Counted from the stretch's first letter, positions 5,122 through 48,365 are shown. The stretch: DNA of 64,000 nucleotides from Candidatus Kuenenia stuttgartensis (GCA_945860915.1 CAMARR010000001.1:413277-477276); one strand, 5' to 3'. The notes: a model not told the origin generated them from the letters alone. Numbers and translations: made by a program.

Positions 5122-5165
5122 TGGGAGTCTCCGGTGGCAGGCGGAAGCCCGCCGGGTTTGGGAAC

Positions 5166-5594: not shown

Positions 5595-5604
5595 AAGAGA
5601 AACC

Positions 5605-7245: not shown

Positions 7246-7305
7246 GGCGATATCGTACGAGTCGAGGCGTCCCACCCACAGGCACCCGGCGCGTATAACT
7301 AAGAC

Positions 7306-10296: not shown

Positions 10297-10299
10297 GAA

Positions 10300-10908: not shown

Positions 10909-10961
10909 GGGTGCCGCGTCGTTACGCGCGTCCCTATTCTATGCGAACCGCAGGACATTGA

Positions 10962-11282: not shown

Positions 11283-13054
11283 GGTCGATTCTGTTCCACG
11301 TGAATGATGCCACCGTCGAAGGCATCCATCACCCTGCGAACTGCAGGGTCGGCGTAAACATCTTTCTTCGGTCCTGTCGGAATAGCCGTGGGGGCCGGCC
11401 CTGTGACTTCGAATCGGAGCTTGATCGAGCAGGGAGTAAGGGCCGAGAATGCGGCTTCAATCACCGGCTTAACCTTCGGCGACTCAAGCATATTTGCGGC
11501 GATTGACGGCCCGCCGGGCAGTCCAACGATCGTCAGCGAGCCCTCAGTCCGGCACGGGAGGCTCCCCTCGAGCCACTTGGCGTGGGGAGCAAGAGATTGC
11601 GGCATATTCGCCAACATTGCCCTCCAAAGGCTCTGCTGTATCTCGAGAATGGGTGGCTTCGAGGGAAGTGCCGGCGCCACGACTGTCGGCGAAACTACGA
11701 CCGACGTCGGCACCGACGGCTCGGCTGCTTCGGAAGGGCGAGATGTAGCAGAAGGGGGTATCGGCGCGTGTGATTCCGAAGGGGCCCGCGTTAGCGATGG
11801 AACCGTTGTGCGGACCGCTGATGTGGGAGGCTGCGCGGGGGGACGGACCGGGGCAGACGTCAGAGGAGCCCGCGGGGGCGCCGAGAATCTCGGCGCAGGT
11901 ACAGGCGCACCCTGACGCGAAAGTCTCTCCTCCAACTTGTCAATTCGTGACACGAGATCAGTCCACGGAACAAGTTCGACAGATCGGGCCAACTTAAGCA
12001 GCGCAACTTCAAGCTGCAGACGACCCTGGCCCATCGATTTCACTTCGCGCCATGTATTGAGGAGAAGGCGCGTGGCAAACAGAAGTCGGTCAAGGTCGAA
12101 GCGTGAACGGGCAGCATCAATGACGCCCGACCTCCGTCCACCCGTGCCCGCTGCAAGTCCGCGGGCGGCAGCCGACATCGCCTCACGGAACGTCTCAAGC
12201 AATTGACGAAGCACTTCCTCGGCATCACGCCCAGCTTCGAATGCGTCGTCAAGCGCGATAAGAGTCGCCGCTGGGTCGCCATCGCCGAGTGCGGTGACCA
12301 AACCGAGCATCCGGTCGGAGTCGAGATTGCCAAGGGCACGATCGACATCTTCAACTTTGATGTGCTGCCCAGCAAATGAGACGATCTGATCGAGCAAGCC
12401 CACCGAATCGCGAAGTCCACCCTCGGCTTTCCGTGCGATCTCCTCTAAGACGCCGGCTTCGGCAATGACCGACTCGCGATCACAAATCGACCGAAGTCGA
12501 CTAGTAATATCGTCAGCCGTTATGCGCCTAAAGTCAAAGCGTTGGCACCGGGACACAATCGTCTCCGGAACATCCTGAAATTCGGTCGTTGCAAAAATGA
12601 ACTTGACGTGGCTCGGCGGTTCCTCGAGCGTCTTCAACAGCGCATTGAACGCTTGGATCGTCAACATGTGAACTTCGTCGATCACATAGATCCGGTAACG
12701 GGCACGAGCAGGTCGATATCCGGCGTTGTCCCTAATCGCGCGAATCTCGTCGATGCCACGATTCGAAGCGCCGTCAATTTCAAGAACGTCGAGATCTTCA
12801 CCGGCTCCGATTGCAGCGCAGATTTCGCAACGATTGCAGGGTTCTGCGTCTGCGACGTTCGGACAGTTCAGCGCCTTCGAGAGAATACGCGCCATGGAAG
12901 TTTTGCCTGTGCCACGGCTACCCGTAAACAGGAACGCATTCGCCACGCGTCCCTCGCGCAGTGCATTGCGAAGAGTGACCGCTACGGTCGACTGTCCGAC
13001 GACGTCGGCGAAGGTCTGCGGTCGGTATTTGAGGGTGAAGGGTTGGTAAGTCAA
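11279..13054 (-). CDS. dnaX: DNA polymerase III subunit gamma/tau
   Basis: LTYQPFTLKYRPQTFADVVGQ...FLFTGSRGTGKTSMARILSKALNC...CNRCEICAAIGAGEDLDVLEIDGASNRGIDEIR. Start reassigned to TTG at 13054 because the longer track ORF runs through the SRP RNA and the tRNA. Confidence 0.93.
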   Translation of the reverse strand: MTYQPFTLKYRPQTFADVVGQSTVAVTLRNALREGRVANAFLFTGSRGTGKTSMARILSKALNCPNVADAEPCNRCEICAAIGAGEDLDVLEIDGASNRGIDEIRAIRDNAGYRPARARYRIYVIDEVHMLTIQAFNALLKTLEEPPSHVKFIFATTEFQDVPETIVSRCQRFDFRRITADDITSRLRSICDRESVIAEAGVLEEIARKAEGGLRDSVGLLDQIVSFAGQHIKVEDVDRALGNLDSDRMLGLVTALGDGDPAATLIALDDAFEAGRDAEEVLRQLLETFREAMSAAARGLAAGTGGRRSGVIDAARSRFDLDRLLFATRLLLNTWREVKSMGQGRLQLEVALLKLARSVELVPWTDLVSRIDKLEERLSRQGAPVPAPRFSAPPRAPLTSAPVRPPAQPPTSAVRTTVPSLTRAPSESHAPIPPSATSRPSEAAEPSVPTSVVVSPTVVAPALPSKPPILEIQQSLWRAMLANMPQSLAPHAKWLEGSLPCRTEGSLTIVGLPGGPSIAANMLESPKVKPVIEAAFSALTPCSIKLRFEVTGPAPTAIPTGPKKDVYADPAVRRVMDAFDGGIIHVEQNRP

Positions 13055-30497: not shown

Positions 30498-31964
30498 TCA
30501 ACGATCTCGCCACCAGTTCCCCTTAAGAGGCGTCGACCGATCTGTCGGAATGTGATTGAAGAAGGAGGATTTGTCCTTCTCATAGACCACTCTCCCATTC
30601 ACCAAGACGATCTCCGCGAACGAACGGTAGTCCAAAGGCTCACGATCCATCACGAGGATGTCCGCGTCCTTACCGATGTCCAGACTGCCCACTCGGTCAT
30701 CGATCTTCAAAAGCCGCGCGGGGTTCAACGTGATTGAAGCCAGTCCCGCAGCATCCGAAGCGCCTCCGCGAATTGCATAGCACGCCTCAATAGGTAGAGC
30801 CATCAGATCGCGCCCAGGCAAACCGTCTGTCGAAATGGTCGGCGACAACGGCTGAACTGCAAACGTGTAGCCAGCCTTCTCCAAAGACGCGGCGTTATAC
30901 GGTCGCCATCCCGACGGTTCTGTCAAGAGCCGATTCCGAGGCTCCGCACCGTCTGCTGGACGTTGACGCGGATTGAGCATGAAGGTGAGCCGCCCACGGG
31001 CAAGATCCGGTAGTGAAGCCCAAGCCTCTGTGGCGTCCGTCACCGTAATCGGCAGGTTGAATTCCTCCGAGAGGCGTGCGACGTCAGCGAGCTCAGTGCG
31101 TGTCGAGGCACGAACAAATACAGGCACTTCACCGTCAAGTGCCTTGACGAAGTTCATGGTGTTCTCGTCCGCCGTCGGGGCCTTCCCCGCTTTCGCTGGG
31201 TCGGCAACGAAGGCCGCACGCGCCTTCCGAAACTCAACGGCACGTTTGAGGAGGTCGCGCGTCTGCTGCTTGCCACTCTGGTCGGATGGGGCCGCAGGCG
31301 CAATTGGGTCGCCTCCAAACGGGCTGCGCAGGGGCTCAGTCGTCCCATATTGCACCCAAAGGACAGCGCGATCACGTATCCCAAGACCGTCGATCGAACC
31401 GTAAGTGTGCTTACCGATAAACCCGGCGAGGGTCCCGGTTGGGGTCGGGGAACCACCCTCCATGGCAGTGGTGATTCCCGACGCCAAGGCCATCTGCATT
31501 CTGATGTTGTAGGGATCGGCTTGGTCGGCTGCCGACTCGTCACCACGTGCCATGAAGCCGCCGCCGAAAGTCTGCAGCGCCCGCATCGCGATGAATCCAG
31601 GCGAAAGGTGCTTACCCTTGCCGTCGATGATCTTCGCACCTTCTGGGATCGGAATATCGCGCCCCACGTCGAGTATTTTGCCCTCAAAGATCAAGATCGT
31701 GCCGCGGCGTATTACCGGCGCCGAAACGGGCCAAATAGTCGCATCCACAATCGCAGTAAAGGGGCTGTCCGTCGGACGAGATTCAGCCTTCGCTTGCGAT
31801 GACGTACTCTCCGCGTTCCGCCTACGCCGGGGTCGCGATGCGGGCTTCGAATCCGATGCGGGCGCGGTTTCCGGATTCGATTCGGGCAACGGAGCCGGAG
31901 GATCTTGGGCAAAAGCCAACATCCCTAAGAGGCCGGCAATCATGAGCAACGACGGACGCATCAT
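30498..31964 (-). CDS. Secreted amidohydrolase-like protein, metal-ligand His motifs lost
   Basis: Signal peptide to FA|Q; barrel-entry strand reads LSPGFIAMRALQ (no HxH); VFVRAST and VTDATEAW in place of HAH/EHG; conserved tail ITLNPARLLKIDDRVGSLDIGKDADILVMDREPL. Confidence 0.85.
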   Translation of the reverse strand: MMRPSLLMIAGLLGMLAFAQDPPAPLPESNPETAPASDSKPASRPRRRRNAESTSSQAKAESRPTDSPFTAIVDATIWPVSAPVIRRGTILIFEGKILDVGRDIPIPEGAKIIDGKGKHLSPGFIAMRALQTFGGGFMARGDESAADQADPYNIRMQMALASGITTAMEGGSPTPTGTLAGFIGKHTYGSIDGLGIRDRAVLWVQYGTTEPLRSPFGGDPIAPAAPSDQSGKQQTRDLLKRAVEFRKARAAFVADPAKAGKAPTADENTMNFVKALDGEVPVFVRASTRTELADVARLSEEFNLPITVTDATEAWASLPDLARGRLTFMLNPRQRPADGAEPRNRLLTEPSGWRPYNAASLEKAGYTFAVQPLSPTISTDGLPGRDLMALPIEACYAIRGGASDAAGLASITLNPARLLKIDDRVGSLDIGKDADILVMDREPLDYRSFAEIVLVNGRVVYEKDKSSFFNHIPTDRSTPLKGNWWRDR

Positions 31965-33229
31965 GGAGCCTCCTCAGAATCATGCACAACGGTTCCCGCA
32001 ACCATCACTCGCAGCAATCGCGACGACGGGGCAAATGGATCACCCGACCAAACAAGCAAGTCAGCGGACTTCCCAGCGCCCAAGGACCCGACTTCGCCCT
32101 GAATTCCCAGAATTTCCGCAGGCGTCAAAGTCACCGACCTTAAAACATCGTCTCGGGAAACCCCTCGACGCACGACCTCAGCAAGGTGGTAAGCGAATCC
32201 AGTGAAGGCAGGTGCCGGATTCTCAGGGACCAGCGCAACGGGAATACCGGCATCGAAAAACCTGACTGCCGTCGGAATTTCAATATCTGTATCGGCGCGA
32301 AGAACCGAGGCGGTTGGAAGTATCACCGGCACTCCGAGTTCCTTTACCAAATCGAGGGACCTCCAGCAGTCCGGTCCCAAAAGCAGGATGGGTCGAAATG
32401 CCGGGAATTCCTTCAAGATTGGCATCATGTGCAACAATCCGTGTGGAGCTCGAATCCCAAGGATGCCAGGGAGACGCTTCTCCAAGACATCCACGAGTGG
32501 AGACAATTTGGGATCCTTCGCGGCCTCACTTGGCTTCGACTCGGCCCCCTTAGATTCCGACGGAGCCGACTCCGAACTCTCCGGTTTCGATTCTGCTTTT
32601 GTCGACTTCTTAGGCTTGGCCGCATCCTCGCGAGCCTTAGTGGCTTTACCAAGGGCCTCGCGGAAGAACTTCTTTGATGAAGTCTTGGGATCGAATCCCA
32701 TTGCAAGGCAGGAACCGGATCCCGCGAGGATATCGTCAGCACGCGGATCACGATTCTGCTTGCGCGCAGGATGAACGAATGCGCCCTGCCCCGCGAACCC
32801 GCCACCCATCGAAACCACATTCAAACGGGTAAACCCGGCCTTGGCGGCAGCCGTGATCACTTCCCAAGACATGGGCTTCACATCGGTCGCTATCTGGCGA
32901 TCCGCCGAATTACTCGCTCCGCTGAAGTCGCCCGTTGGCATACCGAACGCGGCGGCATACGCATGAATGAAACCGGGCGTCACATGCCATGTCGGGTTCT
33001 CAAGCAAGTCGGCAGTTTCGGGAATCTCTACCTCGGCCGCCGATCCGACGCGAGTGATCTTCCCGTTTTCAAGGAGGATCACTGCATCGTCGATGGGCTT
33101 CCCCGAGACAGTCCATGCACGGCCCACATGGAGCGCCAGCATGCGCTCCTGTGCCGCAACGGATCCCGCCACGCATGCGACAAACAGAGCCACTATTGCA
33201 AGTCGCCCCACCTTAGAACCTGATGCCAT
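31961..33229 (-). CDS. Secreted amidohydrolase-like protein, metal-ligand motifs lost, Lys/Ser/Glu-rich insert
   Basis: Signal peptide to AA|Q; VTPGFIHAYAAAFG; insert KPKKSTKAESKPESSESAPSESKGAESKPSEAAK; tail VTLTPAEILGIQGEVGSLGAGKSADLLVWSGDPF. Confidence 0.82.
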   Translation of the reverse strand: MASGSKVGRLAIVALFVACVAGSVAAQERMLALHVGRAWTVSGKPIDDAVILLENGKITRVGSAAEVEIPETADLLENPTWHVTPGFIHAYAAAFGMPTGDFSGASNSADRQIATDVKPMSWEVITAAAKAGFTRLNVVSMGGGFAGQGAFVHPARKQNRDPRADDILAGSGSCLAMGFDPKTSSKKFFREALGKATKAREDAAKPKKSTKAESKPESSESAPSESKGAESKPSEAAKDPKLSPLVDVLEKRLPGILGIRAPHGLLHMMPILKEFPAFRPILLLGPDCWRSLDLVKELGVPVILPTASVLRADTDIEIPTAVRFFDAGIPVALVPENPAPAFTGFAYHLAEVVRRGVSRDDVLRSVTLTPAEILGIQGEVGSLGAGKSADLLVWSGDPFAPSSRLLRVMVAGTVVHDSEEAP

Positions 33230-34484
33230 CGCGATCAGCGTCATAGCCCACCTCCCCATCGACGATCACTACTTGGGTTCGACTTCGTGGATCCAACGGG
33301 AAACCCGTCCAAATCGCGATATCGGCGTCCTTACCTGGTTCGAGCGAACCGAGACGCTTCTCCAGCTTGATCATTCTTGCTGGATTGATGGTCAAAGCCC
33401 GCAACGCCACGTCCTCGGGCAGCCCGTAGCGGATTGCCATTGTCCCCTGAAGCGGGAGCTCCTCTTGGGGAATGACCGGCGCGTCCGTATTGATCCCAAT
33501 GGAATTCCGATCGATTCCACGCCAGAAATACGCAGCTGGAATGCCGATGAACTTCGCTTGGCGTCGGTCGTAGTCAAATCCACGAGGGCCAGCGGCCACA
33601 GGCATCCCGAGCGCCTTGAGTTCAGGCGTGTTGAGATAGCCCTCCCACTCGCCGTGATCGACGAAGGGATCGAGCCCGAACTCCTTTTTCAGAATTCGAA
33701 TGGTCGATTGGACGACCTGAAACCACTGCGTGTGAACTGCGATCGGAATTTCCTTCTTGAAGAGCAGGCGCATGTTCTCAAAACGCAGGTTCCTCTGCGG
33801 TGCGACTTTCGTGTCGCCTTTTTCATACGCCTCCCAAGCGAGGTGATAGACCTGCGCCTCCTTGAGCGTGTTCCGAATGATCCAGTTCATGCCCATGCGG
33901 CCAGCGCCGAGGTCCCCGCCTTGACGCTCGGGGTTCCCGGCCTGCGCGATTTTGAGCGCGCCTGGGAATCGAACCACGATGTCATCGCGTGTCCTTCCCC
34001 AAGTCTTCATGACGACGCCAAACCCGCCCATGTTGGTCCCGGATCCCGGGATCGTCAGCAAGGTTGTGACGCCGGCTGATAGCGCATTTCGGGTCGCCGG
34101 GGTGTCGAATTGGACAAAGTCAACTACGCGCAAGTCTGGGTTGACTTGAAACACCATGTCGTTCAAATCGGAGAGAGATACACCGGTGTGGTTGTGCATC
34201 TCCAGAAAGCCCGGCACCACCACGCGATTCGTGGCGTCAATGATGCGAGCGCCCGACGGAATCTGAACCTCGCCGAATTTTCCAACCGACTCAATCTTTC
34301 TGCCACGGACCACAACGACGCCATCTTCGATTTCAGGCGATTCGATCGGACAAACACGGCCGTGAACAATGGCTAAGACCGGGTCGTCAGCGCGCGGCAT
34401 CGGGCTTGGCGCTTGAATCAGTTGCGCCCAGGCGGCACCGCAAAGCGCCAGCACCAGAGCAAACCGCGAGAGCAAGTGCCTCAT
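33213..34484 (-). CDS. Secreted amidohydrolase (COG1228-like), probably catalytically intact
   Basis: VVPGFLEMHNHTG (HxH); IPIAVHTQWFQV; FVDHGEWEG; GINTDAPVIPQ; TINPARMIKLEKRLGSLEPGKDADIAIWTGFPL. Confidence 0.92.
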   Translation of the reverse strand: MRHLLSRFALVLALCGAAWAQLIQAPSPMPRADDPVLAIVHGRVCPIESPEIEDGVVVVRGRKIESVGKFGEVQIPSGARIIDATNRVVVPGFLEMHNHTGVSLSDLNDMVFQVNPDLRVVDFVQFDTPATRNALSAGVTTLLTIPGSGTNMGGFGVVMKTWGRTRDDIVVRFPGALKIAQAGNPERQGGDLGAGRMGMNWIIRNTLKEAQVYHLAWEAYEKGDTKVAPQRNLRFENMRLLFKKEIPIAVHTQWFQVVQSTIRILKKEFGLDPFVDHGEWEGYLNTPELKALGMPVAAGPRGFDYDRRQAKFIGIPAAYFWRGIDRNSIGINTDAPVIPQEELPLQGTMAIRYGLPEDVALRALTINPARMIKLEKRLGSLEPGKDADIAIWTGFPLDPRSRTQVVIVDGEVGYDADRDGIRF

Positions 34485-37375
34485 CGCGCACCTCCTTCTT
34501 CAACGAGCTTTCCATCGATAATAGTCATGATGACATGAGTTCCTGGAGCAAATGGTTCGCCCGAAAGGAGCACAACATCTGCATCCTTTCCGCGTTCGAG
34601 ACTTCCAACCCTCTCGAGCACTCCGAGAAATCTCGCGGGCTGTCTCGTGATCATTCGCAGTGCGTCTTCGGGGTCCACGCCCTCGCGCACAGCCATCTCC
34701 GCCATGCCGTAAAGCTCACGTGTGTCACCCGTCCCAGATCTAAACAACACAGGCAACTTACTGCGGAAGGCCAAGTCGGCGGGACTCATGGACACGCCAT
34801 CTTCTTGGAGCATTTCTCCGCCGGAGCAGAACGCGACGCCTGCATCGCGATAACGATTGAGCGCCTGCTTGAAGGCGCCAATCCCAATGACGACGACTTT
34901 TAACTCGTGCTTGGCACGAAGGACCTCGAGCACGGAGTCGACTTGAGCCTCGCCGGTTACGTAAACAAAGATCGCCGCTTTCCCTGCGATGACCGGGCGC
35001 CAGGCTTCACCGGAGTCTGTCTTAGCCGGTGCCTTCGGTCGACCGTCTTCTGCCGGGCCCGCAGATGCAGCGCTCGCAGGCTTAGTCTCGGCCGACGAGG
35101 TGGAGGAGGCTCCCGCCTCGGTGGAGCCACTTCGGCTCGCCGAAAACTCAGCCTCGCCGAGCGGACCGAGTTTCACTGTGCCCTCCATCAGGTCGCGCCC
35201 CACCGTAGCCTCAACGGTGATCGTCGTTTCGCCCTGGGTCGCCGAAACCTTGAGTTTGCCTCCTTCAAAGGTGCCTTCAAATGGCATCGGCTTGGGTGGC
35301 TGGCCGCCTCCTCGGCGATTGCCCATGGACATGGTCAATTCGCCGGTGACCTTGGTTCCTTCGAGGGCAAGCGTAATGGTTAAAGGCAACGGGCGAGGAC
35401 TTCGCCCGAGCCTCAGCTCTCCGGTCCAGGTCCCGGAAACAGGGTCTTTGCTCTTTGGAGCCGTGATAGCACCGAGCGACCTAGACTCCGGAGCCTTCAG
35501 AGATGACTTTCCGCCCCGCTTCCATTCAGCAAGCGCAGCATCATGTTGCGTCCATGACTCATGGTACTTCTTCGCAGACTCGACGAACCCGTCGAGTTGT
35601 TTGCTGAGGGCCGCCCCTCCGGGATTAGCCGTGAGGTCGATCATGACGCCGGCTTGTCGCGCAAGAATGGAGTTGTTCGCACCGCCGGTCTTTACAACCG
35701 AAAGCGGGCCCGCCACGAGTTTGCCCATGCCTGGAGTCAGGCCCGCCGATGTCACCCCTGCACGAGCGGCTGCATTGAGATCGGGCATCGTTGGATCGAA
35801 CGAGTCGACGAGCCACTGCTCTGTGCCAGTAGCTCCAAATTTAGGGCCGAGGGTCATCGCACCGTCGCCGAGCCCCACATAGGATCTCAATCCCACCTGT
35901 GTGCCCGCATCTACAAACCCGGGAACCACCACTGCATCCGGACGCACGATACGTCGGGCTCCGGCCGGAATGACGACGTTCCTGCCGACTGCGCGGATCT
36001 TTCCGTCTTCAATCACGATGGTTCCGTTGTCGATCGGATCCCCGTCACACGTGTGAATTCGGCCAACCGTCACGGCAACGACTTCTGACTTGCGGGCTGC
36101 GCGGTGCACGACACGTCCGTTGGAGACAACCATCATCGGGCGTTCGTGGTACGCGAACGGGCTGCGTGAATACACAGCCAAATCAGCTAAGCGACCATTG
36201 ACCAGGGTTCCTGTTCCGTCAGGAAGTCCGAGCATTTTTGCTGGCGCAGTGGTGACGGAAGTCAACACATCTGATGGCCCAAATCCATCGCCCATCAATC
36301 TTGTGGCGTGGAAGAGAACTTCGCCTTCCTCACCCACGAATGGCGGCACGACAGCAACAGGCACCCCAGCCTTGATCAGTAGTGCTGCGGCCGTGCGGCG
36401 GCCTTCACCGGACTCATGAAACAACGGTGCGATTGCCGAGTTTCCGATGGGTGGCGTTGCCACGGCGCGAAGAACAACGCTGGCATTGATCGACGCAAGT
36501 GCCGCTGCATGCATCCATGCTTCGTTCCCACCTTCGATGATGAGTCGGAGCTTAAACTCGCGTGCGAGTTCAATCGCTCCTGCGACATCAGCTTCTCTGT
36601 CGCAAGCCACCCGAACCGAGATCTCGCCACTCAGCGCGCGTGCGAAAGGACGAAGATCGACATCGTCCATGGATGGCGTCCACTTCGGATCGCGGGCCTC
36701 GGAGCCGGCGCGCCGGAAAAGACTGCGCAGCGCATCTAAAGCGCCTGCGCGAGTTTTCCCTGGCTGCATCTCTGCAGCCGGAAGTGGTTCGCCGAGGTCG
36801 GGTATCAGCGGTGGATTGAAGACGTTCGGCGCCGAGCGAATATTCTCGGAGAGTGACACTCGAAGTGACACCGACCGAACCAACACTTCCCCGCCAAGAT
36901 CAGCTCCTGCCAGTCGGACGGCTGAACCCTGCCCCGCAACGATGCGGGCGAATCCTGGCGAAATGTAAGCAGCTGTCACGCCCCCACGAGTGACTCCCTT
37001 GAAGGAATCAAACGGGTCAAACGCATCTGCAGCGACGGTGCCCGGGGTCAAGGACTCCTCAGGATCGGTCACTTGCGCCAACGTGCGAGAGTGCGCGAGA
37101 ATCAACCCAGGAAGGATGACGCCATCCGGCAACTCGACGACTTCAACATCGGAGGGAAGCCCAGGAACCGCATCGCGCCACGACTTGGCGCCGGCGAGCG
37201 GGATGGTCCCCGAAAGAACTCCGGCCTTCACCACGACGGCAACCCGCTCGACGGGTTGGCTCGGCGTCGCATAGGCCTGCTTCACAATGAAGACGATCGT
37301 CGCGGGGCCTTGCGCCGCGATCGACATCGCGATCACCAAAAATGAGGCAATAAGAATGGGTAGTCGGCGAAGCAT
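34481..37375 (-). CDS. Secreted double amidohydrolase-like protein with an inserted beta-barrel-like domain, metal-ligand motifs lost in both halves
   Basis: Domain 1 ILPGLILAHSRTL...VTTAPAKMLGLPDGTGTLVNGRLADLAVYSRSPF; domain 2 VVPGFVDAGTQVG...ITRQPARFLGVLERVGSLERGKDADVVLLSGEPF; insert DPVSGTWTGELRLG...EFSASRSGS. Confidence 0.85.
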   Translation of the reverse strand: MLRRLPILIASFLVIAMSIAAQGPATIVFIVKQAYATPSQPVERVAVVVKAGVLSGTIPLAGAKSWRDAVPGLPSDVEVVELPDGVILPGLILAHSRTLAQVTDPEESLTPGTVAADAFDPFDSFKGVTRGGVTAAYISPGFARIVAGQGSAVRLAGADLGGEVLVRSVSLRVSLSENIRSAPNVFNPPLIPDLGEPLPAAEMQPGKTRAGALDALRSLFRRAGSEARDPKWTPSMDDVDLRPFARALSGEISVRVACDREADVAGAIELAREFKLRLIIEGGNEAWMHAAALASINASVVLRAVATPPIGNSAIAPLFHESGEGRRTAAALLIKAGVPVAVVPPFVGEEGEVLFHATRLMGDGFGPSDVLTSVTTAPAKMLGLPDGTGTLVNGRLADLAVYSRSPFAYHERPMMVVSNGRVVHRAARKSEVVAVTVGRIHTCDGDPIDNGTIVIEDGKIRAVGRNVVIPAGARRIVRPDAVVVPGFVDAGTQVGLRSYVGLGDGAMTLGPKFGATGTEQWLVDSFDPTMPDLNAAARAGVTSAGLTPGMGKLVAGPLSVVKTGGANNSILARQAGVMIDLTANPGGAALSKQLDGFVESAKKYHESWTQHDAALAEWKRGGKSSLKAPESRSLGAITAPKSKDPVSGTWTGELRLGRSPRPLPLTITLALEGTKVTGELTMSMGNRRGGGQPPKPMPFEGTFEGGKLKVSATQGETTITVEATVGRDLMEGTVKLGPLGEAEFSASRSGSTEAGASSTSSAETKPASAASAGPAEDGRPKAPAKTDSGEAWRPVIAGKAAIFVYVTGEAQVDSVLEVLRAKHELKVVVIGIGAFKQALNRYRDAGVAFCSGGEMLQEDGVSMSPADLAFRSKLPVLFRSGTGDTRELYGMAEMAVREGVDPEDALRMITRQPARFLGVLERVGSLERGKDADVVLLSGEPFAPGTHVIMTIIDGKLVEEGGAR

Positions 37376-37377
37376 GC

Positions 37378-38613
37378 TCAGTTCTTCCCATCCCCGAGGC
37401 CGAGAACTTCGGTGAGGCGGCGATCGGATCGACGCTCGTAGATCACTCGGCCTTCAATCACACCGGAGTCAACCCATGCACGGCCTGACAAGGGGTCGTC
37501 GCTGAGAATTAGGACGTCGCCGTCCTTTCCTATTTCAATTGAACCCTTTGTTTTGCCAAGTCCGATCACCTCGGCAGCGGTCAGGGTGACGGAACGAAGC
37601 GCGACGTCGCGAGGGATACCCATTCGAACAAGGGATCCGGCCTGATACCAAAGGTAGCGCTGACCAAGACTGGTCGGCCGTGCGGTTGCCGCGAACGCGA
37701 CGCCCTTCTTGTGCAGAATGGCGGGCAGCTCACGACGCACCATCTTGCCGGTTTCCGGATCCATTTCTTCGACGTCCATCTCGGGCGTCAACACGACGGG
37801 CCGCTTGTCGGCTGCAATCAGATCAGCTGCCTTCCATGTTCCTGGCGCGAGAACAAGGCGCTGCTCATAGCCGAACTCGGTCGCTAAGGCGAGCGCGCGA
37901 ATGACGTCGCCCGGTTCGCCGCAGTAGGTGAACGCGGTCACCTGCTTCTTAAGCAGGCGGGCCATGGTTTCCCTCCGGCGATCGATCGCCAAACGATCCA
38001 TATCGAGCTTCAAAGATCCGCTCGGGCGGGAATCCGCCGCAGCCTCCTTGTTGTCGAGATAACGCTTCGCATCGTCGAATGCTGATCGCAGTTTGGCCAT
38101 CTGGGACGCGCGATTCCCCTGTGGAGGCACCATCGATATCTTGATCGAGCCGTCCGGAACAATGGTCATGTCTTCGACGACGCGGCCCGTCGGACGCAGC
38201 ACCCGTCCCGATCCACCAATGACCGTACGATCGCCAGGGAGAATATGAATCGAGTAGACGCCATCGCGCACGGAGTCATCGAAGAACGGACGCGTTGGGT
38301 CGATCGAGTCGAGAACCGACACGAAGGGGGTTACCTCCATGTTCTCATTGGGTCGATCGAGCCCTTCGCTCGTCGCTGCGAGCACATAGGCCGGCATGAC
38401 TGCCCGACCTGCGGCGTCGATAACCAAAGTAGAGAGATCGGCCTTCAGTCCTTCACCAATCGCGGACACGCGACCATCGCGAATCAGAAGATCAGTCTTC
38501 GCGTTTTCAGGTCCGGAGACCGGAATCAGGCGTGCGTTGCGAATGAGGAGATCCTGAGCAGGCATGAGTCCTGCGAGGAATGCACAAGCAATGATGGGAC
38601 GGAGTATGCGCAT
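37378..38613 (-). CDS. Secreted amidohydrolase-like protein, metal-ligand motifs lost
   Basis: MRILRPIIACAFLAGLMPA|Q; AVMPAYVLAATSEG; SVTLTAAEVIGLGKTKGSIEIGKDGDVLILSDDPL. Confidence 0.83.
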   Translation of the reverse strand: MRILRPIIACAFLAGLMPAQDLLIRNARLIPVSGPENAKTDLLIRDGRVSAIGEGLKADLSTLVIDAAGRAVMPAYVLAATSEGLDRPNENMEVTPFVSVLDSIDPTRPFFDDSVRDGVYSIHILPGDRTVIGGSGRVLRPTGRVVEDMTIVPDGSIKISMVPPQGNRASQMAKLRSAFDDAKRYLDNKEAAADSRPSGSLKLDMDRLAIDRRRETMARLLKKQVTAFTYCGEPGDVIRALALATEFGYEQRLVLAPGTWKAADLIAADKRPVVLTPEMDVEEMDPETGKMVRRELPAILHKKGVAFAATARPTSLGQRYLWYQAGSLVRMGIPRDVALRSVTLTAAEVIGLGKTKGSIEIGKDGDVLILSDDPLSGRAWVDSGVIEGRVIYERRSDRRLTEVLGLGDGKN

Positions 38614-38618
38614 GGAGT

Positions 38619-39848
38619 TCACTCCTTCTTCGCGGACGCTGTTGATTCGCGCCACACGATGCGGCCGCCGATGCCGGCGACCAAAAGACGAGATGTTGGA
38701 GACATGGGGTCGGAGGACCACACGCAGAAATCGGCATCCTTGCCGACAGCGAGAGTGCCTACACGGCCATCCAAACCGCAGACCTTTGCTGGTGCCGATG
38801 TGATCGACATAAGAGCTTTGTTTGGGTCAAGTCCGCCGCGGGCTGCCGCACGGGCCAAGTCAAGTAGCGTCGATCCGGTGTCATCGTTTCCGCGCGAGAT
38901 GGCGAACGCGATGCCAGCCTTATCTAGGCGACGCGGGTCGGAAATCGCTCCACCCTTTTCCGGGCCGCTACCCGGATTGAAAAGTGGTCCGATCAAAATT
39001 GAGATCTGTGCCGCCTTGAGGTCGTCCATAACCAACGTTGCCTCGATCGTCCCGCCGATGCGGTACCGCGGGATTCCGGCTTCTTTGCAGAGGCGGATGG
39101 CCGCGAGAATCTCAGCGGCGTCTTGCGCCACGAACGCAACAGGAACTTCACCGCGTCCAATACGGGCAAGCGCGAATCCTTCGCGGTCCGGATACAGAGG
39201 CTCCCAACCCGGTTGATTGCGGCCCATCGCTTCTTGAAACGAACGTCGAAGCTCGGCAATCACACCCATGCGCGTCGTGGGACGCCGCGTGAACATGGTG
39301 GCTTCGCCACCACGAAACGCTGCGTTGCGAATTGTCGGTCCACGGCCAATGACTGCGTGGATTGCGACTTCTTCAGACAGGACTTCGGCGGCGCCCGGCA
39401 CCATCTTCATGGCGCAAGAAACTCCCGCGATGACGTTCCGATCTCCAGGCAGCACGACCGCGGTTGTCACGCCCGTACGTAGAAGCGCCGCAAAGCCGGG
39501 GTTTGCCTTATCGATTCCGTCCACCGCACGGACCCAAGGAGTTGTCTCACGTCCCTCCTCATTGTCCGCATCGCCCCGCAGCATACCGACGCGGCTCTCG
39601 GCCTCGACAAAGCCCGGGGTCAGTTCGGCCTCAGCGATATCAATCACTTCGAGGGCTGCAGGAGGCGCAACGTCTTTCCCAACGACGGACGAAACCTTGC
39701 CGCCCGAAATGACGAGAGCTGCGCCTTCTACGACGGTGCCGTCCCCCACGTGAAGTCGTTTGACTTTGATCACTAGGCTTGGTTTGTCCTGAGCGCTGAC
39801 AAGCGATGCCAAAGCGAGGAGAAGAACACTCCCAAATCGCAAGCTCAT
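38619..39848 (-). CDS. Secreted amidohydrolase-like protein, metal-ligand motifs lost
   Basis: MSLRFGSVLLLALASLVSA|Q; LTPGFVEAESRVGM; ITSAPAKVCGLDGRVGTLAVGKDADFCVWSSDPM. Confidence 0.83.
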   Translation of the reverse strand: MSLRFGSVLLLALASLVSAQDKPSLVIKVKRLHVGDGTVVEGAALVISGGKVSSVVGKDVAPPAALEVIDIAEAELTPGFVEAESRVGMLRGDADNEEGRETTPWVRAVDGIDKANPGFAALLRTGVTTAVVLPGDRNVIAGVSCAMKMVPGAAEVLSEEVAIHAVIGRGPTIRNAAFRGGEATMFTRRPTTRMGVIAELRRSFQEAMGRNQPGWEPLYPDREGFALARIGRGEVPVAFVAQDAAEILAAIRLCKEAGIPRYRIGGTIEATLVMDDLKAAQISILIGPLFNPGSGPEKGGAISDPRRLDKAGIAFAISRGNDDTGSTLLDLARAAARGGLDPNKALMSITSAPAKVCGLDGRVGTLAVGKDADFCVWSSDPMSPTSRLLVAGIGGRIVWRESTASAKKE

Positions 39849-41002
39849 GGTTTGGAATCCTTCTCTGCGCGCCAGATGACACGCCCGTCTGAAACAACCA
39901 AAAGCACACGTGATCTCGAGTCAGTGGCAGGTCCGGACAGGGCGACGAGATCCCCGTCCTTGCCAACTTCAAGTGATCCGACGCGGTCATCGACGCCCAC
40001 GAGTCTCGCGGCGTCAATCGTCAATGCCCGCTCGACCTTCGACACGTCTGCGCCGCACATGACAGCCGTTGATGCCGAAACGCGCAACGACGAGGGTCGA
40101 GTGAACGGCGCCGCGGAACAGAACGCAATTGGCATTGTCGAAGCGAAGAGGTCGGCAATCTCCTTCGCGGCATACCCATCCATCCCAGGGCGGATGGGGC
40201 TCAGGATCAATCCTGACGCGCCGGCAGCCAGCTCTTTCGATCTCGCACCGGCGCCCGCCGAAGCAATCACGGTTGGATTGAGTCCAGCGTCACTGCGCAG
40301 GCGCGCTGCGGCGTCGTATTCACGATTCGACCCAGCTGCAACGAAAACACGCGACTTGCCGTCTTTCCATGGAGCCATCGCCTCCGCTGATTCCTTAGGA
40401 GGAGACCGAAGGAGTGATAATCCCCCAAACAACGAGGTTGGATCACGGCCAGCTGCTCCACCACCGCCAAACATGCGCGAAAAAGGATCTCCGCCGCCAC
40501 CACCTCGAGGAGGTGCGTACTCGGACTCTCTGAGGCTGACTTTAAGGCCCGTCACGGGCTTGAGCCATGAGGCGCCATCAGCCCCGCCGATCTTGATCGC
40601 AGTCGCCAATCCGCCGACGACATTTCGGTCGCCCGGAAGAACGTGAACGGTCGTTACGCCATGCGAAGCAAAAGACTGAAAGTCACGATGTCCAAGTTCG
40701 ACGGCATCGCGCATTTTGAATTCAGGCAAGATCGTCTTGGACAAGTCGTCGCGCTCTCGACGGGCGCCCGCTGCAGTCGCCGCGTCGACGAACCCTGGGT
40801 AGATGTGGGCATCGCCCAGATCGAGGGTGGCAGCGTCATTACCGACGGAGGCCACCTTTCCCTTGCTGACGACAATTGTCGCAGCAAGTGTGCCTTGGCT
40901 GCCCATCGTGTGGACGTGCGCAGACTTGATCCGAAGATCCTCCTGGGCACAGAGTGTGCCCACGAGACCGAATGCCAGGACACCAAGTCGAAGTTTCATC
41001 AC
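39845..41002 (-). CDS. Secreted amidohydrolase-like protein, metal-ligand motifs lost
   Basis: MMKLRLGVLAFGLVGTLCA|Q; IYPGFVDAATAAGA; LTIDAARLVGVDDRVGSLEVGKDGDLVALSGPA. Confidence 0.83.
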   Translation of the reverse strand: MMKLRLGVLAFGLVGTLCAQEDLRIKSAHVHTMGSQGTLAATIVVSKGKVASVGNDAATLDLGDAHIYPGFVDAATAAGARRERDDLSKTILPEFKMRDAVELGHRDFQSFASHGVTTVHVLPGDRNVVGGLATAIKIGGADGASWLKPVTGLKVSLRESEYAPPRGGGGGDPFSRMFGGGGAAGRDPTSLFGGLSLLRSPPKESAEAMAPWKDGKSRVFVAAGSNREYDAAARLRSDAGLNPTVIASAGAGARSKELAAGASGLILSPIRPGMDGYAAKEIADLFASTMPIAFCSAAPFTRPSSLRVSASTAVMCGADVSKVERALTIDAARLVGVDDRVGSLEVGKDGDLVALSGPATDSRSRVLLVVSDGRVIWRAEKDSKP

Positions 41003-42480
41003 TTGCCCTCCGGATCGAAGGCCTTTGAGCCCGCCACAACCGACGTGATTTTGGTCGCAGGATCGAGCAGCGCGCCAGTAGTCACTAGCAACTGAGCATC
41101 TCGGCCGACCTCAACGGTGCCAAGCCTGCGACCGAGCCCAAGCGCACGAGCAGCATTCGTCGTGACCGACGCGAGTGCAGCTTCGGCGGAAAGCCCGCGA
41201 CCCATGTGAAGAGAAACGATGAATGGAAGCCCAGCGATGCCATTGACTCGCGCGCCTAGAGACGTCACGACGATGGGCACGCCCGCAGCCGACAACACCG
41301 ACGCTAGGTTCTCTCGATGCAAGAGCATGTCTAGATCGTCTGGGTCGCCTGCCGTCGGATCAGACAAGGCCACCATTGCCTTCTCCGCCTTGATCCGGTC
41401 GAGAATCCGCGGTGCCTCGGTGGCGCCTACGATCACGACACGAATTTTCCGCGACTTAACCGTGTCCAGAACGGATTCGATCTCCGAAACCCAATGCGCC
41501 TCGACCCAAAGCGGGGCGTCGCCTTTGTTGACTCGAATCAATGCTTCTTTGGACGGGTCTCGCTTGGGCTTTTCCGGCGGGTCCGGTCGCTTTTCTCCAC
41601 CGGTAACTGCCGAACTTGTGGGACCCGATTCGGCTCCGCCTCCGCGCCTCGCGCCACCACCTGCGCCGCGCATGTTCTCCCGGATCCATTCCTGCTGTTT
41701 CTCGCGCGGCCAATCTCGGAATCCCTCGGGAGGCGAGGCTGGGCGACGAGGAGAAGCCCCGGTATCAGGAGCCGCGGGTTGTGGCTTGGATTCAGAAGAG
41801 CCCTTCTTTTTCTCCCATTCCTCAACCTTCTTTTTCCACTCTTCGAGATCTTTTTCGTACTTCTCCTGCGACTCACGATATTTCTTCGCGCCGTCGAGGG
41901 CTTCCTCTATCTGCTTGCCCAAGCCGGCTCTGCCACCAGCCGATGCTCGGCCCATGCCTTGCCCCTGTTGGGCAGCGCCGGCGATGATTGCGACGACCGC
42001 ATCGTCGAGGATGACTGATGGCTTAGTGGCGGACGCTGCTACTGAAACGATCGGAGCTGCAGGGCCGCGAACGGAAACAAATCCCATGCCGACCACACCG
42101 ACTCCTTGGCGGAGCAACGCCAACCTGGCGTCAGAGCCGAACGCGTCATACACGTCAAGCACTCGATCGCTAGGCCCGACACCACCCGGGCGCGCCGACG
42201 ATGACTCGATCATTCCAGAGTTGAATGCATCAATCATCGAAGGGAAGACGTGCTTCCCCGTGGCGTCGAGAACGGTGGCGCCTTCCGGCACCGAGAGATC
42301 GACGCCAATCGTCTTGATGACACCCTTGTCTACAAGGACGTCGGCGACGATAGGCGGGGACTGCGGCTTCGCGTGAATTGTTCCGCCCTTGATCACCAAA
42401 ACGTCAGACTGGGCTGAGGCGGTGAGGGCTACAACGCACGCGAACAAAGGTCCGTAGAGGACCGTTCGGAGTCGTGGCAT
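40999..42480 (-). CDS. Secreted amidohydrolase-like protein with a charged helical insert, metal-ligand motifs lost
   Basis: MPRLRTVLYGPLFACVVALTASA|Q; VFPSMIDAFNSGM; insert KYRESQEKYEKDLEEWKKKVEEWEKKKG; VTTNAARALGLGRRLGTVEVGRDAQLLVTTGALL. Confidence 0.82.
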   Translation of the reverse strand: MPRLRTVLYGPLFACVVALTASAQSDVLVIKGGTIHAKPQSPPIVADVLVDKGVIKTIGVDLSVPEGATVLDATGKHVFPSMIDAFNSGMIESSSARPGGVGPSDRVLDVYDAFGSDARLALLRQGVGVVGMGFVSVRGPAAPIVSVAASATKPSVILDDAVVAIIAGAAQQGQGMGRASAGGRAGLGKQIEEALDGAKKYRESQEKYEKDLEEWKKKVEEWEKKKGSSESKPQPAAPDTGASPRRPASPPEGFRDWPREKQQEWIRENMRGAGGGARRGGGAESGPTSSAVTGGEKRPDPPEKPKRDPSKEALIRVNKGDAPLWVEAHWVSEIESVLDTVKSRKIRVVIVGATEAPRILDRIKAEKAMVALSDPTAGDPDDLDMLLHRENLASVLSAAGVPIVVTSLGARVNGIAGLPFIVSLHMGRGLSAEAALASVTTNAARALGLGRRLGTVEVGRDAQLLVTTGALLDPATKITSVVAGSKAFDPEGK

Positions 42481-42549
42481 CGGATTGGGTCTCAGGCTCG
42501 CGCAACAACACGGGACATGGCACGCCATGCCCCGACACTTGGAATGGTG

Positions 42550-42594
42550 GAATAGTCCCACGGTGGGCATCCCCTGTCGAGAGCAGGACTATTC
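42550..42594. repeat. Inverted repeat, 9-bp arms with a 27-nt spacer, upstream of the amidohydrolase-like array
   Basis: gaatagtcc (42550-42558) and ggactattc (42586-42594), exact reverse complements. Confidence 0.6.
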
Positions 42595-42603
42595 GGCGCA
42601 AAT

Positions 42604-44958
42604 TCAGAGACCAACCGCAATCTCCGCCGGGAACACACCTTCTGTGTCCCCGCGTGTGAGAAGCGTTGAGATCATTGTCGCGAGAGTTCGAACGAGCCTT
42701 CCCCGAAATGCCTCCCTGTCGCCCAAGGTGACGACGACGTCTTTTTCGAAATCGACCATCGTGTCGTCAAGCCGAATGAGAAGCGAGCCCTCAAAGCCCT
42801 TGTTATCAGACACCCGGACGACCTGCCCCTGACGCAAGGCGACGACTTCCGATCTTGGCTTGGGTGTGCTCGCTGCGAGCCAGTAGCTTGATCCGGCCAG
42901 CACATCGTCCTGTTTCCACACAATTCGATCGGGCCGTAGATTCCGCGTGTATTTGGCCATCCATGGGACGGCGGCCGCATCCTCTCGGTCCATCCAATGC
43001 CCCTTAGTCTCGTGAACTAGGACCCAGTGGGGGTAAGCATTCGGATCCCTCTCTGAGAGGCCGTCCAATAGGACCTTCCATTCAGACGCGTGCTTGTTGC
43101 GATCGTACGCGGCATCACGCCCGCCAACGTGAATGGTGAACGGAAGATTCCGAAGACCCAAAGGAGACGCGTCCCCAGGATGCCCCGCCATCATCGCGGC
43201 AGCCGCCCACCGATCGGCGATCCGAGGAGCCAATTGGAACGCACCGTCGCCACCGGCGCTGTATCCCATCAAGTACACGCGGTCCGGATCAACCCCCTCG
43301 AACGCCACCATGTTCTCGATGAGTCTGTCAAACAGTCGGTCTATGTGGGGCTGGTGCCAGAGGTCCCACGTGTCCGTGGGTGCCCGCGGTGCAACGTAGA
43401 TCCCTTCACTCGGCCTGTAGAGACGCTTCTGGTTCTCCCACTGTTGATCATTGACCTTCGCGGGCGCGCCTCCGCCCCCGTGCATCGAAATCCAAAGGCT
43501 CCGACCTCGGGCCGGTCGCTCGCCGTACGCGGCATACCAGTACGGCATCTTCTTTCCATCGAATTCAAGAACCCGATCTGTGGCTTCTCGTTTGCGATCT
43601 CGTCGAATCGACCCGTGGTGAGCTGCAACCAAGAGTGTCTTCGCGCTCGCGCACTCCTCCTTCGAAAGCGAGAGTCTGGCGAAAGGCCGCGTAGCCGCCG
43701 CCTGCAGCGTGCCTCCCTCTCGAATGAACGCACTTAACGCCTCAACCGGATTCTCGGCTTGACCACGCGTCGTCGGCAGCGTTGTCAGTGGCGTCTGCGG
43801 CGCTCGAGCCGCGGACGCATCGCTCGGCGCAAGATTCAAGTCAACAAGCTGTTCGTCGATCTTCACAACGAACGGAATGAGACCGACGTCTTTCCTGTCG
43901 AGTACGCGGACGCGAAGCGAAGCTCCGACAGTTAACACAAGCGTCGCGTGATCGTTGGCGTCAAAACGATCATCGCGCGACTCGGAGGACTTGAGGACCC
44001 TCCCCTCGCCATCAACGACGTCGAACTTCAGGGCAACGCGCGGAGCGCCACTCCGTATCCGAAAACGAACGCGTGCCATCCCGGCGGGAATCAGATCCGG
44101 CGTCTTGTAGCGCTCCGAGACATCGATCCCGCGCACCGAATGATCTCCAGGCGCCCAAACCATCGGGAAGCTCAGTGGCGAATCTCCCCATGTCACCGCG
44201 TATATGCCGCGTTTGGCGTCACCAGTGATCGCCTTCGCGGCGCGGTCCGCGAACCATCCCTCGTTGAGGCGATCTCCGGTTGGCTCGGCCGCACCCGTGT
44301 ACTTCCAACTGCCGTCCCAGACCTCTGTCCATGAGTGATTCCCACTGCCGTCCGACCATAGTGCCGTCCCAGCAAAACGCGCCGGAACCCCAACTGCCCG
44401 GCAGGCATCGACCAGAATCACCGTGAGCCCCGTGCACGAGGCCAAACCCGATGCCATCGATTCGAGGGGGCCCTGATCCGCGCGCGCCCGTTGCGTCGAG
44501 TATTTGACCTTCAACTCACTGAACACCCGCTGATTGAGCAAGACCGCTGCTTCTCCCGCCGTCTTAGCGTTCAAAACAACCGAGCTGAATCGCTTACGAA
44601 AGTCCTTCCGCCATCGCTCGCGTTTCTCTGAGACGCTTGCATAGGGCAAGATCGCATCACGAAACAACTCAACGGAAACCGCAGACCGCCAAGGCGCTGC
44701 CTCGAATCCGTCGTGCGCCTCATTCACATTTTCAATCAGGTAATTCGCGTCGAGGGACCTAAGGTCGACGTCCGGCATTCGCTCTAGAAGCCACGACAGC
44801 GACTCACGCCTCTCGCCGACAAAGGAACCTAATGCGCGATCAAGTTCTGCGCGGTTTACTCCGGATCGAACGAGAGCCGATTCGAGCCTAGATGGCGACG
44901 ACAACTGTGCAATTGCAAGCCAAGACAAGACGATTAAAGTCAGGACAGATCTACACAT
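42604..44958 (-). CDS. Secreted transglutaminase-like / alpha-beta hydrolase (esterase) fusion
   Basis: Transglutaminase core LASCTGLTVILVDACRAVGVPARFAGTALWSDGSGNHSWTEVWDGSW; C-terminal SLWISMHGGGGAP...VYLMGYSAGGDGAFQLAPRIADRWAAAAMMAGHPGD...FTIHVGGRDAAYDR. Confidence 0.87.
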   Translation of the reverse strand: MCRSVLTLIVLSWLAIAQLSSPSRLESALVRSGVNRAELDRALGSFVGERRESLSWLLERMPDVDLRSLDANYLIENVNEAHDGFEAAPWRSAVSVELFRDAILPYASVSEKRERWRKDFRKRFSSVVLNAKTAGEAAVLLNQRVFSELKVKYSTQRARADQGPLESMASGLASCTGLTVILVDACRAVGVPARFAGTALWSDGSGNHSWTEVWDGSWKYTGAAEPTGDRLNEGWFADRAAKAITGDAKRGIYAVTWGDSPLSFPMVWAPGDHSVRGIDVSERYKTPDLIPAGMARVRFRIRSGAPRVALKFDVVDGEGRVLKSSESRDDRFDANDHATLVLTVGASLRVRVLDRKDVGLIPFVVKIDEQLVDLNLAPSDASAARAPQTPLTTLPTTRGQAENPVEALSAFIREGGTLQAAATRPFARLSLSKEECASAKTLLVAAHHGSIRRDRKREATDRVLEFDGKKMPYWYAAYGERPARGRSLWISMHGGGGAPAKVNDQQWENQKRLYRPSEGIYVAPRAPTDTWDLWHQPHIDRLFDRLIENMVAFEGVDPDRVYLMGYSAGGDGAFQLAPRIADRWAAAAMMAGHPGDASPLGLRNLPFTIHVGGRDAAYDRNKHASEWKVLLDGLSERDPNAYPHWVLVHETKGHWMDREDAAAVPWMAKYTRNLRPDRIVWKQDDVLAGSSYWLAASTPKPRSEVVALRQGQVVRVSDNKGFEGSLLIRLDDTMVDFEKDVVVTLGDREAFRGRLVRTLATMISTLLTRGDTEGVFPAEIAVGL

Positions 44959-45780: not shown

Positions 45781-46622
45781 TCTCCCTCCTTATGCACTGC
45801 CTGTTGGAAAATGACATCGAGAGGCACTGGGCCAATTTCAACATCGGCCAACTCGAGCGATTTCAGCCGATCAAGAAGAACATCGATCGGCCCCGCAGAC
45901 TCGAATACCCATTCCGTTCCATCCTTCCGGATTGCAGTCACTCGCCGCGGAAGCGTGGCCCGAATTCCGGCCACGGTCTCGATCATTCGCAGCGATCCCT
46001 TCGCGATGATGGCGATGCGGTCTGCAACGCGATCCACCTCGTCTAGAACATGACTCGACAGAAATACCGTTGCTCCTCGGGCGCGGGCCATACGAACCAG
46101 CGCAAGAAACGCGTCACGAGCCAGAGGATCAAGCCCAGTAGTCGGTTCGTCAAGGACAAGCAGTTCCGGACGATGCTGAAAGGCGAGGGCGATTCCGAGA
46201 GCCTGCCTCATCCCGGTTGAGTAGCCCTTGACGGACCGCCTAAGTGCTTCGTCCGGAAATCGGAGGGTTTCGAGAACGGTACCCCGATCGGGTGTCGCGA
46301 CTCCATGAAGATCAGCAAAGAGGCTGAGAGTCTCGCCGCCCGTCGCATGAGGAAAAAGGGCAAGGTCGCCCGGCAGGAACCCCACCCGTCGACGGGCGAT
46401 GGCAGGGGCCTTCGCGAGGTCCTGTCCAAGTACTAGCGCCTCCCCCGCGTCGGGCCGGATCAAGCCCAGCAAGGTGCGGATCGTGGTGGACTTCCCCGCA
46501 CCATTCGGTCCGAGGAAGCCAAACACTTCACCCACCCGTACCTCAAGGTTTAGGTTTGATACCGCCACCGTCGGTCCGTGTCGAACAGTCAGGTTTCGGA
46601 TGGATATCGCGGTGGAGGTCAT
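45777..46622 (-). CDS. ABC transporter ATP-binding protein
   Basis: GFLGPNGAGKSTTIRTLLGL; YSTGMRQALGIALAFQHRPELLVLDEPTTGLDPLARDAFL; FLSSHVLDEVDRV. Confidence 0.93.
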   Translation of the reverse strand: MTSTAISIRNLTVRHGPTVAVSNLNLEVRVGEVFGFLGPNGAGKSTTIRTLLGLIRPDAGEALVLGQDLAKAPAIARRRVGFLPGDLALFPHATGGETLSLFADLHGVATPDRGTVLETLRFPDEALRRSVKGYSTGMRQALGIALAFQHRPELLVLDEPTTGLDPLARDAFLALVRMARARGATVFLSSHVLDEVDRVADRIAIIAKGSLRMIETVAGIRATLPRRVTAIRKDGTEWVFESAGPIDVLLDRLKSLELADVEIGPVPLDVIFQQAVHKEGE

Positions 46623-46685
46623 AAGAGCCCAACGAACGTCGAGGAAGGGCTCGCAAAGTTAGCATTCAACCGAGGACCTTCCCCT

Positions 46686-48365
46686 ATGACATCCATTCGC
46701 TTTGCATTCGCCTTCTTTCTTCTAGTGGCAGCTTCGGCTGCACAGGTCGCAGACGAAGGGGCGGATCTCGTCATCATCGGGCGCGTCATCACGCTCGATC
46801 CGACGCTTCCCGAAGCGGGCGCGATCGTGGTTCGCGGAGGCCATATCGAGAGGCTGACGTCCGCTGAGAGTGCAGGTAGCAGAATTACGCCACGAACAAG
46901 AGTCATTCGACTCGCGGGTGACTCTGTGGTGATCCCCGGCTTCATCGAGTCGCACGGGCACCTCCGCTCGCTCGGAAAACTGGCTCGCACGATTAACTTG
47001 GCGGATGCGACGTCAGCCGAGGACATTCGCATCGCGGTATCGAAGGCGGCCAAGGACCTTCCTAAGGGAGCTTGGATCCTCGGCCGAGGGTGGAACCACG
47101 AGCGCTTCACCCAAAAGGAATGGCCAACCCTTAAATGCCTAGAGGAATTCACAGAGAATCCCATCGCACTCTCGCGGACAGACGGCCACGCACTACTCGC
47201 TAACCGCCGCGCTCTAGAGCTCGCCAACATCTCAAGAGCGAGCCCCAACCCGACAGGCGGCGAAGTGATGAAAGACCCGAGCGGCGAGCCCACCGGGATC
47301 CTGATCGATCGCGCCATGGAGCCCGTCTCGGCGCTGGCCGAGTCCGACCCGTCTCCGCAACTCATCATCGGCGACTATGTCGCCGCTGAGAAGTCGTGCC
47401 TCGCCGAAGGCGTCACTTCCTTCATTGATGCCGGAACAACCCCGGGTGAATTGATGCGGCTTGCAACGATGATCGACGAAGGTCGCTTTCAAGTGAGAGT
47501 GCATGCGCTGCTCTATGCGTCCACTCCCGCCGATCTAGCCGCAGCAACTGCGCGCCCGCCCATTCACGATCTCGCGAACGGGCGACTTTCCGTACGCGGA
47601 CTCAAGATCTCGGCCGATGGAGCACTGGGGTCCCGCGGCGCAGCGCTGACCGAGCCATACAGCGATCGGCCGAGTTCGACCGGACTCCTGATCACGCCGC
47701 CTCCCTTTCTTGTCGACGCTGCCCGAAGGGCGCTAGCCAATGGCTGGCAGCTTTGCGTGCATTCGATTGGAGATCGTGCGAACCGAGTGGTCTTAGATGC
47801 CATGGAAGCCGCGTTGCGCGAAAACCCCGTGAAGGACCATCGATTCCGAATCGAGCATGCACAAATCGTTGATCCCACGGACCTACCCCGATTTGCGCAG
47901 CTCGGAGTCATTGCGTCAATTCAGCCATGCCATGCAACGTCTGATGGCCCGTGGGCCCCGAAGCGGATCGGTGCCGCTCGCTACGCATCCATGGGCTATC
48001 CTGCGCGCTCTCTTCTCGATGCCGGTGCGCGTATTTGCTTCGGCACGGATGTTCCGGTCGAACCGATCTCGCCGATTCGAAACCTCGTCGCGGCAATCAC
48101 CCGTTGTGACCCGGATGGTGTTCTAGGTGGCCCATTCCGCGCCGAGGAACGACTGAACCGCAAGGAGGCCCTCCTAGGGGCTACCGCATGGGGAGCCTAC
48201 GCCTCATTCGCCGAGAACCGCCGAGGCACCCTCAGCCCAGGGATGGACGCCGACCTTGTGATCCTCTCTGCAAATCCACTCACGGCCGAACCATCCTCAC
48301 TCGCGAAGGCGAGGGTCCTCACCACGATCGTCGCAGGACGAATTGTCTACGAGGCCGCTCGGTGA
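46686..48365 (+). CDS. YtcJ-like secreted amidohydrolase, metal motifs intact
   Basis: VVIPGFIESHGHLRSLG; LSRTDGHALLANRRAL; HRFRIEHAQIV; ARICFGTDVPVEPISP. Confidence 0.92.
   Translation: MTSIRFAFAFFLLVAASAAQVADEGADLVIIGRVITLDPTLPEAGAIVVRGGHIERLTSAESAGSRITPRTRVIRLAGDSVVIPGFIESHGHLRSLGKLARTINLADATSAEDIRIAVSKAAKDLPKGAWILGRGWNHERFTQKEWPTLKCLEEFTENPIALSRTDGHALLANRRALELANISRASPNPTGGEVMKDPSGEPTGILIDRAMEPVSALAESDPSPQLIIGDYVAAEKSCLAEGVTSFIDAGTTPGELMRLATMIDEGRFQVRVHALLYASTPADLAAATARPPIHDLANGRLSVRGLKISADGALGSRGAALTEPYSDRPSSTGLLITPPPFLVDAARRALANGWQLCVHSIGDRANRVVLDAMEAALRENPVKDHRFRIEHAQIVDPTDLPRFAQLGVIASIQPCHATSDGPWAPKRIGAARYASMGYPARSLLDAGARICFGTDVPVEPISPIRNLVAAITRCDPDGVLGGPFRAEERLNRKEALLGATAWGAYASFAENRRGTLSPGMDADLVILSANPLTAEPSSLAKARVLTTIVAGRIVYEAAR

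Follow-up and report, generated by a model that had tools for sequence, protein, structure and literature searches.

The window analysed here is a 64,000-nt stretch of DNA from Candidatus Kuenenia stuttgartensis (GCA_945860915.1 CAMARR010000001.1:413277-477276), and all coordinates are given within it. Positions 30498-42570 hold eight co-directional ORFs on the minus strand, which encode nine amidohydrolase-fold domains because the ORF at 34481-37375 contains two. The domains were numbered D1 to D9 in the order of transcription.

40999-42480, minus strand: D1, first gene, ligand-less domain preceded by a putative signal peptide; ORF extends open to 42570, start probably at 42480
39845-41002, minus strand: D2, ligand-less domain (Pfam, alignment, census)
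38619-39848, minus strand: D3, ligand-less domain (Pfam, alignment, census)
37378-38613, minus strand: D4, ligand-less domain; ORF open to 38721, likely start at 38613
34481-37375, minus strand: D5+D6, ligand-less pair of domains on a single chain (alignment, AlphaFold model)
35126-35443 (residues ~645-750): beta-rich insert of D6, with many confident strands in the AlphaFold model
33213-34484, minus strand: D7, sole domain with the full metal-ligand set, predicted binuclear metallohydrolase
34188-34196, minus strand: D7 ligands H97-N-H99 (101/101 copies)
33951-33953, minus strand: D7 ligand K178 (100/100 copies)
33732-33734, minus strand: D7 ligand H251 (100/100 copies)
33654-33656, minus strand: D7 ligand H277 (100/100 copies)
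33483-33485, minus strand: D7 ligand D334 (100/100 copies)
31961-33259, minus strand: D8, ligand-less domain (AlphaFold model matches 3OOQ)
30498-31964, minus strand: D9, last gene, ligand-less domain (alignment, census)

The ORFs overlap by 4 bp at 40999-41002, 39845-39848, 34481-34484, and 31961-31964, and a 2-bp gap lies at 37376-37377. The start of D4 is probably codon 37 of the ORF (38613), 5 bp after D3. These coordinates agree with a preliminary description of the locus, which had reported eight co-directional minus-strand genes with 4-bp overlaps and a D1 start at 42480. All of the ORFs score above the Pfam Amidohydro_1 cut-off, chiefly through their C-terminal ~70 residues, and a Pfam search with the D6 insert gave no match. 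An N-terminal hydrophobic stretch is found in each of the eight products, with a cleavage-like site in most of them by a heuristic check, which makes it likely that all eight are exported. The genome contains 14 matches to the family, nine of which are the array domains, with few elsewhere. The plus strand at 46578-48365, about 4 kb from the array, encodes a further amidohydrolase, predicted to be exported and with what looks like an HxH motif (ESHGHL), which falls outside the nine classes. Just upstream of D1 on the minus strand (42604-44958) lies a gene for a large protein, predicted to be exported, that combines a transglutaminase-like domain with a region resembling alpha/beta-hydrolases; it is not a conserved neighbour of the array. 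Comparison of the array loci revealed no conserved neighbouring gene that hints at a substrate; the few families that did recur were confined to certain lineages or were noise from the opposite strand.

Alignment of the nine window domains showed that the barrel motifs set side by side in the preliminary description were read correctly, and that H97, H99, K178, H251, H277, and D334 are all present only in D7. The product of the gene at 33213 is, as had been claimed, the only one with the metal ligands; the earlier list of these had omitted the lysine, K178. Among solved proteins, D7 comes closest to 3OOQ from Thermotoga maritima (E 5.5e-51), and the printed alignment of 3OOQ with a D7 orthologue has the HxH, Lys, His, His, Asp pattern in common, so that the D7 ligand set matches the structure. 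From this pattern we infer that the metal site of D7 is binuclear and bridged by a carboxylated lysine.

A ligand census of the public loci found all six ligands in each of the 100 full-length copies of D7 and no more than four of six in any of 503 non-D7 sequences, in line with the earlier proposal of one likely enzyme accompanied by eight ligand-less, full-length domains. D1, D8, and D9 have none of the ligands in nearly all copies. Most D4 copies retain the first His and the Lys, with Tyr/Leu at two further ligand sites. In D3, four ligands occur in one sequence only, and in D2 up to four occur in a few lineages; the D2 copies with four of six (loci L090, L111, and L121) are likely intermediate stages of ligand loss. 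The ligand columns of each class were set by alignment, which makes the beta-1 HxH column, adjoining a conserved PG, safe, and the beta-8 and some of the beta-6 columns of divergent classes less certain. Repeated as it is in dozens of genomes, the ligand pattern is far beyond chance.

A search with D7 gave a match in 48 of 59 genomes. Those with a close D7 orthologue hold 10-28 family matches each, and the same layout was seen in twenty fetched regions. In a tree of 161 domains, the sequences group by array position and not by genome. Scanning contigs with D7 identified 264 relatives, the best 80 of which come from Planctomycetota, including Isosphaerales (e.g., Tautonia sociabilis), Pirellulales, Gemmatales, and Phycisphaerae, and from one Candidatus Aminicenantes chromosome. 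By class profiles, all nine classes are present in 44 of the 45 public loci that include both array ends, and the strict D1-D9 order is kept in 42 of these 45, the exceptions being swaps of D3/D4 or D8/D9. D5 and D6 form a single chain in 69 of 70 loci and are separate in the Aminicenantes locus; D1 and D2 are fused in 19 loci, D8 and D9 are on one chain in L069, and D7 is present in two or three copies in 18 loci. In a second tree, which included outgroups, D4, D5, D6, D7, and D9 were recovered as clean groups; D1, D2, D3, and D8 each had one or two misplaced long-branch members, and their orthology therefore rests more on position.

Because D7 had served as the bait, and the loci might thus have been chosen with bias, a search was also run with a D4 profile. 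Against 294 genomes of the phylum it returned about 72 with E < 1e-100, which belong to some two dozen families, and the array is therefore common but patchy. The 20 regions around D4 matches contain the full set with an intact D7 nearly wherever the contig allows. One region is cut by a contig end (L186), one, on a short contig, consists of a stray D3-like gene (L196), one at a contig end is without D9 (L180), and one has a second D3-like gene at the place expected for D2 (L183); in L180 and L190, D4 comes after D5+D6. The remaining regions except L199 have the full set, and the D7 HxH is present in every region that reaches D7. Since regions chosen by D4 nearly all have the full set, selection bias from the D7 bait was rejected. 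The domain tree and the D4 survey also led us to reject a lineage-specific expansion and to revise the 'single-operon expansion' of the preliminary description: the array is phylum-wide and made up of nine classes. In the genus of L199 (g128; genomes G152 and G179), D1-D6 are found at one locus and D7-D8, together with a further match at the D9 position, at another. The contigs that carry the two loci in G179 are 49.8 and 422 kb long, and both loci lie away from the contig ends, which makes the split genuine. The persistence of the separated D1-D6 and D7-D8(-D9) parts fits with their being parts of one machine.

Predicted structures indicate that D5, D6, and D8 keep the amidohydrolase fold, a barrel with a small beta domain. 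The AlphaFold model of D8 (47 sequences; pLDDT 88, pTM 0.85) has 3OOQ as its best match in the PDB (E 7e-27, TM 0.70/0.78), as does that of D5+D6 (44 sequences; pLDDT 86; E 6e-25, TM by target 0.81), in which the lower pTM of 0.67 leaves it unsure how the two domains are placed relative to each other. By sequence, D1-D4, D7, and D9 are assigned to the amidohydrolase superfamily as TM0814/COG1228-like members. The classes differ in how many polar or aromatic alignment columns are at least 85% conserved: 32 in D7, 2-3 in D1, D2, and D8, 7 each in D5 and D6, 11 in D3, 14 in D9, and 16 in D4. On these counts, D1, D2, and D8 look structural in role, and D3, D4, and D9 may accommodate a ligand. No class-conserved alternative set of H/D/E/C residues for a metal was found in the class alignments of D1, D2, D5, and D8. 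Relocation of the metal ligands to other positions, a possibility that the preliminary description had raised, is therefore rejected for these four classes, which have too few conserved H/D/E/C residues; sequence alone leaves it standing for D3, D4, and D9.

We propose that the products of the eight genes form a single enzyme system, exported and composed of nine divergent versions of the TM0814/3OOQ-type fold. D7 would be its catalytic subunit, with a predicted binuclear site that may hydrolyse an amide, peptide, or related bond. The eight other domains, which no longer have the metal site but retain the fold, would most likely assemble with D7 and with one another outside the cytoplasm, D5-D6 and D1-D2 as fixed pairs, and would take the place of the identical neighbours in an ancestral homo-oligomer. 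Such partners could stabilise the active site of D7, gate it, or feed it. The data show the gene set and its order, the loss of ligands, the selection, and the predicted folds of D5, D6, and D8; physical assembly, the division of labour, the substrate, and the export of the array proteins are what we infer. In its general form, this reading seems to us reasonably probable: a secreted hetero-oligomer whose catalytic subunit is D7 and whose structural, gating, or substrate-binding subunits are the eight paralogs that have no ligands. The more specific version, a phylum-wide, obligately heteromeric exported enzyme in which eight dedicated non-catalytic positions of nine paralogous domains surround a single metal-dependent subunit, is tentative, at a little under an even chance.

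Proteins whose genes stay in the same order over long times and become fused are usually in physical contact. The hetero-oligomer is favoured because of the order and fusions described above and because of two precedents: ochratoxinase, an amidohydrolase of related fold, is a homo-octamer of D4 symmetry (PMC11342369), and in P. aeruginosa the activity of ATCase requires an inactive pDHO (PMC7053772). The ligand pattern, the low dN/dS given below, the intact-plus-degenerate pairs and triples found elsewhere, and the resemblance of the models to 3OOQ also speak for it. Three points count against it. The nine domain types have no simple mapping onto a known octamer; judging from their conserved residues, some of D3, D4, and D9 may bind or even convert a ligand on their own; and a substrate is not indicated by any conserved neighbouring gene.

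In a different explanation, the domains without ligands serve as secreted binding proteins. Each would have become a pocket for its own substrate or product, and they would be co-expressed with D7 but form no single complex. The retained barrel fold of the modelled domains, the class-specific conserved polar residues of D3, D4, and D9, and the probable export of all products are consistent with such a role. However, D1, D2, D5, and D8 have only 2-7 such residues, and the strict one-of-each conservation, the fixed order, and the fusions are more typical of the parts of one machine. We consider it unlikely. Slightly less likely still is that some of the ligand-less domains are enzymes in their own right, using a new chemistry that is metal-free or differently liganded, the array being a multi-enzyme pathway. 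The D4 class speaks for this, as it has the first His in 60 of 65 sequences, the Lys in 62 of 65, and the invariant residues E126, D138, Q360, Y428, and D433, and the ligands kept by D2 in some lineages point the same way. Nevertheless, the D4 of the window has Ala116 where the class has its first His, and most classes are without a conserved alternative ligand set.

In a close pair of genomes (G001/G002), which is the least saturated pair and covers D3-D9, dN/dS is 0.042 for D3, 0.039 for D4 (trimmed), 0.051 for D5+D6 (trimmed), 0.036 for D7, 0.015 for D8, and 0.030 for D9. In other pairs, where dS is near saturation, it is about 0.04-0.18 wherever dS is estimable. Every class tested is under purifying selection, with all values far below 1, and the genes are therefore not decaying. 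The earlier suggestion that selection keeps the degenerate genes is thus upheld, and the array, checked in relatives for absence or pseudogenisation, is present and intact. A pseudogene or an assembly artefact is rejected by these values together with the conservation in dozens of genomes. That the eight domains are transient, role-less, decaying duplicates of D7 is refuted by the present data and deserves almost no credence: catalytic residues were lost, and the ligand-less domains changed faster than D7 in more divergent pairs, but dN/dS is 0.015-0.05 in the least saturated pair, the ORFs are full-length, and the same nine classes recur across many families.

Several known proteins resemble parts of this system. 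The TM0814-type amidohydrolase 3OOQ is similar to the D5, D6, and D8 models in fold and to D7 in sequence and ligand pattern; however, it is one intact protein, whereas in the array eight of nine relatives, in fixed order, are ligand-less. Outside the array, pairs and triples in which an intact HHKHHD domain adjoins one or two degenerate ones were found in further Planctomycetota and in the Aminicenantes phylum group. The tandem or fused pairs and triples of Acidobacteriota and Planctomycetota likewise place one intact domain beside degenerate ones, and D7 groups with their intact members, but the ratio there is 1:1 or 1:2 instead of 1:8, and the nine classes were not seen there. In a single-contig genome of the same phylum as the window, a 1,483-residue ORF (L175, 1776-6224) has three amidohydrolase domains in the arrangement degenerate-intact-degenerate. 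A six-domain array of the Aminicenantes phylum group (L168, G301:C4:8000-22500, at 3673-11370) alternates intact (HHKHHD) and degenerate domains and realises the same idea in a second way. Placing intact and degenerate domains side by side looks like a general habit, with the 1:8 array at its extreme. The CRMP/DRP (dihydropyrimidinase-related) proteins, which appear among the weak PDB matches, are also inactive relatives of metal amidohydrolases and form (hetero)tetramers of their own; unlike the array proteins, they are animal and cytosolic, with no catalytic member in the set and no gene array. ATC-pDHO of P. aeruginosa (PMC7053772) includes an amidohydrolase-fold pseudoenzyme that a partner enzyme needs for its activity. 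As in that kind of system, inactive homologues are fixed beside the gene of an active partner, here D7. However, the active partner of pDHO is a transcarbamoylase of another fold, with one kind of pseudo-subunit, in the cytosol; no transcarbamoylase partner gene accompanies the array, outside of which the only conserved neighbours are lineage-limited.

In the open-access literature, which the search covered, we found no published description of such arrays or of TM0814/3OOQ, and no published analysis of the Acidobacteriota/Planctomycetota amidohydrolase pairs. An enzyme with an inactive paralog is already known as a kind; the scale and the phylum-wide fixity are new to us. Where a pseudoenzyme stands next to an active paralog, this is usually an isolated instance. 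In this array, a whole phylum has retained eight paralog lineages that have no ligands together with one active paralog, in order and under selection. The array is therefore a natural test system for the specialisation of identical subunits and for the indispensability of inactive paralogs. A further consequence is that, for eight of the nine domains in these arrays, the annotation as amidohydrolase probably does not denote a metal-dependent hydrolase.
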